Positions 59,773-61,188 of a DNA stretch of 64,000 bases are shown here, in pieces. A program made the translations under genes and the position numbers. The DNA is from Paracoccaceae bacterium (lineage in GTDB: Bacteria > Pseudomonadota > Alphaproteobacteria > Rhodobacterales > Rhodobacteraceae), in the NCBI GenBank assembly GCA_902534325.1, contig CACAPQ010000001.1, positions 1 through 64,000 of the forward strand, given 5' to 3'. The first letter of the stretch is position 1; every line of letters starts with the position of its first letter. The notes beneath the pieces were generated by a model. The model did no database searches. It saw only the letters and a program-made list of their open reading frames with translations, and was not told where the DNA came from.

Positions 59773-59868
59773 TTCTACTTGTTAATAGGTTTAAACGGGA
59801 TTACATAACTTGCGTCTCCGATGTGTGGGGGCCAAGTCTCCGAACACCTTGAGAAAACGGATTATGAA

Positions 59869-60504
59869 ATGAACAAGCTTTTTCCTGGCATCTTTGCCAT
59901 GGCTACAATTGTAGTAGCCTCTAATATTTTAGTACAATTTTTTATAGGTAATTGGCTCACCTGGGGAGCGTTCACCTATCCATTTGCATTTTTAGTTACT
60001 GATCTTATCAATAGAATGTATGGTCCTGCGGATGCGCGGCGGGTAGTCTTTTTTGGGTTCGTTGTTGGTATTGTGTGCTCCTTAATTGGTACACAAATTA
60101 ATATAGAAATCGCTCCCGACTTTATGGCTCCAGCAGTTACACTCAGAATAGCAATTGGATCTGCTACAGCATTTCTCTGCGCTCAGTTGTTGGACGTGAA
60201 AATTTTTGATCGGCTTAGGCATGGGACTTGGTGGAGTGCGCCGTTGGTTTCTACGTTGATTGGGTCAACTATAGATACTATTCTATTTTTCTTTATTTCT
60301 TTTTCGTTAATGATGACAAGCCTGCTTGGTAGCGATCATAACATCGATTTTTTTAATGAAATTGTAATGGGTCCTTTAGGCTTTGAACAAACGCGCTGGA
60401 TCGCAACAGCTATGGTGGACTGGTCGGTCAAAATATCCATAGCATTGCTTGCACTGGTCCCGTTCAGATTGATCATTATTTCTTATCACGCTCGAAATAA
60501 TTAG
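59869..60504 (+). CDS. Queuosine-precursor transporter (VUT/YhhQ family)
   Basis: About 211 residues from ATG 59869, chosen because family members begin near LPGI, whereas a start at 59821 adds 16 polar residues. Six helices are predicted. The VUT motif SNILVQFFIGNWLTWGAFTY and AFLVTDLINRMYGPADARRVV is clear, with STLIGSTIDTILFFF later. YhhQ imports 7-cyano-7-deazaguanine for queuosine tRNA modification. I looked for a preQ1 riboswitch upstream and saw none. Confidence 0.88.
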   Translation: MNKLFPGIFAMATIVVASNILVQFFIGNWLTWGAFTYPFAFLVTDLINRMYGPADARRVVFFGFVVGIVCSLIGTQINIEIAPDFMAPAVTLRIAIGSATAFLCAQLLDVKIFDRLRHGTWWSAPLVSTLIGSTIDTILFFFISFSLMMTSLLGSDHNIDFFNEIVMGPLGFEQTRWIATAMVDWSVKISIALLALVPFRLIIISYHARNN

Positions 60505-60558
60505 CTTTTGACATTTTTATTTTTTGTGTCAAGCTGTGGATAAGTGAAACAAATGAAA

Positions 60559-60566
60559 GGAGGTGG
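60559..60566 (+). promoter_or_regulatory. Extended ribosome site of the 18-codon ORF, sequestrable by helix A
   Basis: GGAGGTGG lies 4 bases before GTG 60571. It can pair completely with CCACTTCC (60675-60682, one G-U), so ribosome access would depend on RNA folding. Confidence 0.6.
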
Positions 60567-60570
60567 TCCA

Positions 60571-60627
60571 GTGTCTAAAGAGGTATTGGAGAGAGGTGTC
60601 GGAACAGTTGAGGAGTTTGCGCTCTAA
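60571..60627 (+). CDS. 18-residue leader-like peptide before arfB
   Basis: GTG 60571 to TAA 60625 reads MSKEVLERGVGTVEEFAL. An in-frame ATG at 60553 would give 24 residues but would start inside the ribosome site. The extended Shine-Dalgarno favours the GTG. The peptide is acidic and has no amino-acid runs of a classical attenuator. Translation may instead serve to move ribosomes through the RNA structure. Confidence 0.55.
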   Translation: MSKEVLERGVGTVEEFAL

Positions 60628-60705
60628 GGCAGCCCTTGAGGAGTGAAGTCCGCAATTGGTATTTCCTAACCGACCCACTTCCTACAATCTCAAAAAGTTT
60701 ATTTA

Positions 60706-60729
60706 GGGCGGCCTATTGGCCGCCCTTTT
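60706..60729 (+). terminator. Intrinsic terminator between the leader RNA and arfB
   Basis: GGGCGGCC (60706-60713), loop TATT, GGCCGCCC (60718-60725), then TTTT. It is a perfect 8-bp GC-rich stem. It ends 24 bases before the arfB ATG, so arfB needs read-through or a promoter in that short gap. Confidence 0.9.
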
Positions 60730-60753
60730 CATTCAATATTGTAATTAAAAGTA

Positions 60754-61188
60754 ATGCTTAAAATTAATGAGAATATTATAATTGAAGACTGGGAGCTGAC
60801 GGAAAATTTTGTACGATCCTCAGGGCCGGGTGGTCAAAATGTAAATAAGGTGAGCACTGCGGTTGAGCTTCGATTTGAGGCTTTGCGATCTCCCAATATT
60901 CCTGATCAAGTAAAATTCCGATTAAAAAAGATCGCTGGTCGACGTTGGACAAATGAAGGGGCCATAATTATCCAGGTTGAAGATACACGTTATCAAACGA
61001 GAAACCGGGAAATAGCGCGAAAAAGACTTAAAGATTTGATATTAAAAGCTACCATCGTGCAGAAAAAGAGAATTGCTACCAGGCCAACTGCAGGTAGCCA
61101 AAGACGAAGAATAAAAGATAAAAAACAGCGGAGTGAAGTAAAACAAGGTCGTAAAACTATTCGAAAAGAAAGTGACCTTGATTTTTGA
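60754..61188 (+). CDS. arfB: Alternative ribosome-rescue factor B (peptidyl-tRNA hydrolase)
   Basis: The 144-residue protein has the release-factor GGQ motif in RSSGPGGQNVNKVSTAVELR (21-40, GGQ at 26-28) and a long basic C-terminal tail (about 105-140, rich in K and R) that enters the empty mRNA channel of stalled ribosomes. It hydrolyses peptidyl-tRNA on ribosomes without stop codons. There is no good ribosome site before ATG 60754, and a strong terminator lies 24 bases upstream, so expression may be controlled by the leader RNA. Confidence 0.93.
   Translation: MLKINENIIIEDWELTENFVRSSGPGGQNVNKVSTAVELRFEALRSPNIPDQVKFRLKKIAGRRWTNEGAIIIQVEDTRYQTRNREIARKRLKDLILKATIVQKKRIATRPTAGSQRRRIKDKKQRSEVKQGRKTIRKESDLDF

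Follow-up and report, generated by a model that had tools for sequence, protein, structure and literature searches.

The window, a stretch of 64,000 nt from an alphaproteobacterial genome that is 78% complete (G000), contains two neighbouring genes, named here yhhQ and arfB. Between these two genes lies a short RNA gene, and its parts are listed together with its neighbours in Table 1.

Table 1. Features of the RNA locus and of its neighbours (positions in the window)
Feature	Position	Strand	Remark
yhhQ	59821-60504		Upstream neighbour of the RNA gene
-35-like box TTGACA	60508-60513	+	Putative own promoter of the RNA; no -10 element recognised
RNA gene, approximate extent	60538-60730	+	Putative 5' end
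AAACAA (CAACAA-type box)	60547-60552	+	Columns -9 to -4 before the SD, 125 loci
Super-SD GAAAGGAGGTGGTCCAG	60555-60571	+	Complement of the 16S 3' tail
ORF of 18 codons, MSKEVLERGVGTVEEFAL	60571-60627	+	GTG start 60571-60573, TAA stop 60625-60627
Start-codon hairpin, 9 bp	60567-60575 with 60582-60590	+	Pairing across 101 sequences
Stop-codon hairpin CUCUAAGG-CAGC-CCUUGAG	60622-60640	+	Own against swapped halves, 101 loci
Internal 16S-tail mimic (anti-SD) CGACCCACTTCC	60671-60682	+	Helix A partner of the SD
Intrinsic terminator	60705-60726 (stem), to 60730	+	9-bp stem, 4-nt loop, then TTTCATT
arfB	60754-61188	+	Downstream neighbour, outside the RNA gene; ATG at 60754

A preliminary description of this DNA had read this stretch as a leader of arfB, with a ribosome site, a short ORF, two competing helices and a terminator. 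The 18-codon ORF is present and the arfB start codon does lie downstream of the terminator; the terminator exists near 60706-60729 as claimed, but with the 9-bp stem of Table 1 and not the 8 bp given there. Three elements are additional to that description: the start-codon hairpin, the covarying stop-codon hairpin and, in the class, a box of the TTGAC type some 50 nt upstream of the Shine-Dalgarno sequence (SD). A simple scan found no sigma-70 consensus promoter at the RNA locus. TTGAC-type boxes nevertheless peak at -51 to -48 before the SD class-wide (125 loci), and the TTGACA of the window would on this evidence belong to the RNA's own promoter. The CAACAA-type box just 5' of the SD is also conserved class-wide in these 125 loci.

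Within the window, the super-SD is the sole match to GAAAGGAGGTGRTCCAG at up to three mismatches, of which 0.17 were expected in shuffles. Positions 60555-60571 pair with the usual alphaproteobacterial form of the 16S 3' tail at 17 of 17 positions, one G-U counted; the 16S complement noted in the preliminary description is thus present. With this tail, the duplex of SD and 16S tail comprises 17 pairs at -31.8 kcal/mol, whereas the internal mimic gives the window's SD a duplex of 11 pairs at -16.4 kcal/mol. A search with the full 254-nt stretch gave the first relatives, but most loci were collected through the SD motif, so that the invariance of AGGAGGTG in all 101 Rhodobacteraceae-family sequences (and of each of the two preceding A in 100 of the 101) is partly a matter of construction. 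Six matches to the super-SD pattern (L056, L059, L146, L147, L156 and L157) precede ORFs of 54-58 codons with signal-peptide-like starts, which would be either other small secreted proteins that share the ribosome site or descendants of the short ORF. One genome (G048) carries two copies of the motif (L131 and L132) with differing ORFs of 18 and 24 codons.

A match to an already described RNA family had been named in advance as counting against the leader proposal, and what we found is a match of intermediate standing. The Rfam model RF01867 (CC2171) aligns with 60547-60726 at relaxed thresholds (34.2 bits, E 1.3e-5), which is below its gathering cut-off of 75; at gathering thresholds, Rfam returns nothing in the window. 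The match rests on the 5' box cAAcaAucGAAAGGAGGUGAUCCAGUGUCU, which is present in the window and aligned from model position 1, and on the terminal GC-rich hairpin, the model's last position (159) being matched at 60726. Since the gathering score was also reached by none of 20 further Rhodobacteraceae-family loci, and since the window match depends on the box and the hairpin, we regard the window RNA as a divergent and probably homologous branch of CC2171, with independent convergence on its 5' box as a possible alternative. Searched at an E-value of 0.01, the RF01867 model finds 69 of 289 alphaproteobacterial genomes, nine of these over the cut-off, and among 14 control genomes Caulobacter vibrioides and Deinobacterium chartae match, one of the two over the cut-off. 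The box pattern with up to two mismatches occurs in 102 of 385 genomes of the class (nine for the backward control). At one mismatch it occurs in 50 of 299 genomes of the phylum, all of them among the 86 Alphaproteobacteria and none among the 213 others. With up to three mismatches it is found in 265 of 295 genomes of the family Rhodobacteraceae, a figure that includes some matches antisense to the 16S end or due to chance. Carriers among the matches listed include Sphingomonas, Methylobacterium, Ancylobacter, Bosea, Bradyrhizobium, Brevundimonas, Roseovarius and Thioclava. The sole non-alphaproteobacterial genus name among the matches listed belongs to a Candidatus Kuenenia stuttgartiensis MAG (L198), likely a mis-binned alphaproteobacterial contig. 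We regard as real a structured RNA gene that is widespread in the class, with a new variant in the Rhodobacteraceae. The original Caulobacter sRNA paper is reportedly that of Landt and others. A CC2171 member in Mesorhizobium huakuii, MH_s33, appears in the tabulated RNA-seq results as a 215-nt product (PMC5596092, Table 1), which supports a free transcript. The literature searched, most subscription papers lying outside its scope, contains the accession RF01867 in just two papers and yielded no function for CC2171 and, in the portions available, no description of an ORF or of a 16S complement in it; one paper states in general terms that Caulobacter ncRNA regions are untranslated (PMC4117421).

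The short ORF offers insight into what selection has kept at these loci. Among 111 Rhodobacteraceae-family loci, which were selected by yhhQ and not by ORF length, the stop falls exactly at codon 19 in 103, as TAG (44), TGA (39) or TAA (20), and never is TGG found there; by simple arithmetic that ignores relatedness, independent variation of the two purines should have produced about 17 TGG. The use of three stop codons at one site, with no TGG, speaks for termination itself, although the stop hairpin could also be served, and the conserved stops could in part serve it. Stops interrupt the two alternative frames in 48 and 56 of 97 distinct 18-codon ORFs, a comparison in which frame 0 is stop-free by choice. 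Of the ORFs at the remaining 207 loci, 198 have a length of 14-36 codons (64 and 63 of 205 in the other frames), and frame 0 is open to codon 14 in all 207, against 113 and 124 for the other frames. The reading frame claimed in the preliminary description is thus not only present in the window but conserved in its relatives.

The peptide itself behaves differently. For the 97 distinct ORFs, pN/pS is 0.88 in the ORF frame and 0.65 and 0.84 in the other frames, and across five other length classes, comprising from 3 to 158 sequence pairs, the frame-0 value ranges from 0.66 to 1.57; neither set gives a sign of purifying selection on the peptide. Column entropy is level across codon positions in the family's 18-codon ORFs, and peptides are unlike between orders. 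Because frame and stop are conserved while pN/pS and entropy reveal no constraint on the peptide, it appears from these comparisons that the translation and the stopping of the ribosome are selected and the product is not. This bears on the idea that the locus encodes a functional micro-peptide made from a very strong and tightly controlled ribosome site. Such a peptide would account for the conservation of frame, start and stop, within the family as well as across the class, and for the recurrence of L-E and G-T residues in the family. It sits badly with a pN/pS of about 1 that in most classes is not below that of the other frames, and with peptides that differ between orders; moreover, V-L-E is encoded within the start-codon hairpin, and T-W-I-V-A-S coincides with the mimic. 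We therefore think a functional peptide improbable.

The predicted RNA structure of 60536-60735 has an energy of -72.6 kcal/mol (z -4.3, with none of 200 shuffles as low), and in it the SD is paired with the anti-SD copy and the start codon lies within a hairpin. Helix A, in which the SD pairs with 60671-60682, had been proposed in the preliminary description; it is present in this fold and in the consensus of 25 family members, and one of its positions covaries, but judged by duplex energy alone it is no better than shuffles in the window and its closest relatives (together L001-L005; ranks 30-73 of 100). The alignment of the 25 sequences holds 41 pairs, 17 of them with two-sided changes, mostly in the central stem and the terminator; helix A contributes one-sided GC/GU changes and none that are two-sided, its 5' strand being almost invariant. 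When all 111 family sequences were aligned automatically and folded with alifold, a single 6-bp helix was recovered. The covarying position is index 10 of the SD, a position that varies much and that could be measured in 82 of 109 family loci: where it is C, the mimic has G in 4 of 4 cases, and where it is G, the mimic has C in 32 of 33; A faces C in 38 of 45 and T in 5 of 45. The four C-G cases may represent one or two events only. Over the set, the SD-mimic duplex has a median z of -1.3, with 36 of 117 at rank 5 or better among 100 shuffles, and the loci outside the family show a modest excess (38 of 194 at rank 0.05, where 9.7 are expected). Standard pairs make up 95% of the start-codon hairpin over 101 family sequences, against 41-45% in slid controls, and the stop-codon hairpin covaries, its own halves giving a mean of -12.1 kcal/mol and swapped halves -8.8 kcal/mol (101 loci). 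The second helix of the preliminary description, helix B (60645-60649 with the mimic), did not hold up, a perfect 5-bp partner being found in just 6 of 79 measurable relatives.

The position of the lock differs across the class. In the Rhodobacteraceae family the mimic is located 3' of the stop codon. In other orders it is often inside the ORF, for example as CTGGATCGTCGCCTCC, a near copy of the 16S tail that is read as T-W-I-V-A-S, and in 93 of 194 non-family loci the best SD partner has its centre 19-30 nt upstream of the point where the stop codon ends. Outside the family, a helix also joins codons 3-4 to the terminator foot, and all 6 of its pairs are present in 77 of 193 loci (7 in the control); one of these pairs occurs as T-A (41), G-C (21), C-G (9), T-G (5) and A-T (1). 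This helix is absent from the Rhodobacteraceae family (4 of 110, control 5), where the start hairpin stands in its place. In the Sphingomonas group the mimic is weak and the terminator-foot helix is present (CATGGT/ACCATG). The common principle, as far as comparison of the sequences can tell, is that the initiation region is predicted to be shut by the RNA's own later sequence. That the RNA's fold is connected with the loading of ribosomes on its short ORF, as the preliminary description had imagined, is thus well motivated, with frame and stop kept, the peptide not conserved, and both SD and start codon locked.

A complement of such strength (-31.8 kcal/mol with the 16S tail) might also suggest a purely non-coding sponge that titrates 30S subunits through the 17-base duplex. 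This would leave the conserved frame and stop without a role, and once the RNA is complete its SD is locked, so that we find a sponge very improbable.

We then have to ask whether the RNA acts on arfB. In the preliminary description, ribosome loading on the leader ORF sets the read-through of the terminator into this rescue factor gene. The arrangement gives some grounds for it: 87 of 107 family loci (those with at least 900 nt of downstream sequence) have arfB in the next 700 nt, the order yhhQ-RNA-arfB is found in 90 of the 125 loci with a match to either gene, and the gap between terminator and arfB, which ranges from 6 to 472 nt, is below 40 nt in 30 of 84. With gaps this short some read-through is likely, and it may matter in species such as that of the window. 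Against this, the RNA is kept but arfB is missing from the next 700 nt in 20 of the 107 family loci, and a terminator was called in 14 of these 20. Over the whole collection of 318 loci, arfB lies within 700 nt downstream on the same strand at 101, each of which has an RNA of the Rhodobacteraceae type; 90 of the 101 have yhhQ upstream and the remaining 11 also carry the family-type ORF. Among the first 126 loci, arfB was downstream only where yhhQ was upstream (at L091 it is on the other side and strand). Elsewhere the orientation of the next gene is near random, with 92 on the same and 101 on the opposite strand by a crude gene caller, the 92 including up to 11 family loci without a yhhQ match. 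Apart from arfB, no downstream gene is common to the non-family loci beyond clusters of about five. The conserved position before arfB is therefore a property of most of the family, and not of its remaining 20 loci nor of the loci outside it.

The terminator gives no better support to attenuation. A candidate antiterminator between the segment after the stop and the 5' arm of the terminator is no stronger with its own partner (-12.81 kcal/mol) than with swapped ones (-12.95 kcal/mol) over 101 loci, and helix B, as noted, is not kept. The post-stop segment GGCAGCCCTT had looked promising by eye as an antiterminator strand in L152; swapped pairs were equally good, and its letters agree with the stop-codon hairpin. 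We reject attenuation of arfB as the general function of the RNA on the grounds of synteny and of the antiterminator test. As an account of the window's own RNA the attenuator is unlikely, and we give it little credence. Family-type RNA occurs with arfB and without a yhhQ match (L267, L283, L299, L302 and others), and with yhhQ and without arfB (20 loci, including L014 and L015). The RNA is thus found with either neighbour missing and stays when either changes. On the evidence of synteny, of the promoter-like box and of the terminators it is a free-standing RNA gene, independent of its neighbours, which brings it closer to the alternative in the preliminary description, an independent RNA gene, than to the leader. 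The idea of ribosome gating survives, in a form other than arfB attenuation.

Based on these results, the reading that we prefer, with a probability of roughly 0.55, is that this free-standing RNA is a translation-gated, self-locking mini-mRNA, a divergent Rhodobacteraceae form of CC2171 and not a leader of arfB. Comparison among relatives shows its parts, namely the super-SD, the ORF of fixed length with its conserved stop and free peptide, the SD-mimic helix, the hairpins at start and stop, the terminator and the independence from neighbours. The gating itself, early capture of a 30S subunit and later closure, would follow from the order in which these parts are made. In folds modelled on growing transcripts, the SD core GGAGG is unpaired with a median of 0.69 in the first 77 nt and 0.00 at 167 nt (60 family members); for the window the value is 0.57-0.96 up to 118 nt and at most 0.02 from 131 nt. 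A free 30S subunit could thus seize the open SD of the nascent RNA, with 17 pairs at its disposal against 11 for the lock. If none arrives before the 3' part is made, the RNA would close on itself, the later-made copy of the 16S tail pairing with the SD while a hairpin shuts the start codon. Two details qualify this scheme. The mimic would not be the sole lock, because the window's SD is shut by 131 nt, ahead of the synthesis of the mimic. Moreover, the start codon is found in a paired state once the transcript reaches 53 nt (0.03 unpaired), which would hinder early initiation, and capture may begin as SD binding alone. The open, translated state and the closed one may differ in stability or in exposure of the anti-SD mimic, and such a difference would let the RNA report or buffer free ribosomes; its output could be release of the mimic, the stability of the RNA or a buffer of free 30S subunits.

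One of these outputs has been considered as a function in its own right, that of a trans-acting sRNA whose CCUCC mimic would block ribosome sites on other mRNAs, while its super-SD would be a built-in antidote that is removed by 30S. The mimic is an anti-SD in many groups, and in the family it lies 3' of the stop, beyond the part that a ribosome translating the ORF would cover. A parallel can be drawn with a Bartonella sRNA, for which anti-SD loops are discussed (PMC7717549). Where the mimic has extra letters (CUGGAUC), these would be expected to fit the RNA's own SD better than common SDs, and we consider a trans-acting blocker to be rather unlikely. The self-locking mini-mRNA can also be extended to the whole class, as an RNA timer for free 30S subunits. 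In the seconds between synthesis of the SD and that of the 16S-tail copy, capture of a subunit would lead to translation of a throw-away ORF and to an open fold that signals ribosome supply in trans; failing this, the RNA would lock itself. We put this forward tentatively and think it doubtful as it stands. If the gating is true, the RNA would gauge the supply of ribosomes directly by way of the 16S tail.

Whatever the fate of the timer, our data indicate that the CC2171 family is much wider than the Rfam model finds, and that it gains both an ORF with apparently selected translation and a covarying lock from a copy of the 16S tail. The window RNA shares with CC2171 (RF01867) the 5' box, with its 16S-tail complement and start codon, and the terminal hairpin. 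It differs from CC2171-like loci in that the helix between codons 3-4 and the terminator foot is theirs, whereas the window's family has the start-codon hairpin and a mimic after the stop. Like the trpL-type attenuators of Sinorhizobium meliloti (cf. PMC7298713), it has a short ORF, a terminator and a small free RNA; unlike them, it comes without a conserved regulated gene downstream or a covarying antiterminator (one candidate tested). In its lock it resembles type I toxin mRNAs such as hok and AapA (cf. PMC6733600), in which a long-range 3' helix also shuts the ribosome site of a short ORF and open intermediates exist during transcription; it differs in that the family of the window RNA shows no sign of selection on the peptide. 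What appears new, and is indicated by comparison of the loci, is an ORF with conserved frame and stop and no conserved peptide, an SD locked by an internal mimic of the 16S tail and, elsewhere in the class, the helix between codons 3-4 and the terminator foot. Finally, extended pairing with the 16S tail is shared with extended Shine-Dalgarno mRNAs (cf. PMC13009471), from which the window RNA differs in being free-standing, in having a very short ORF and in carrying its own copy of the anti-SD.
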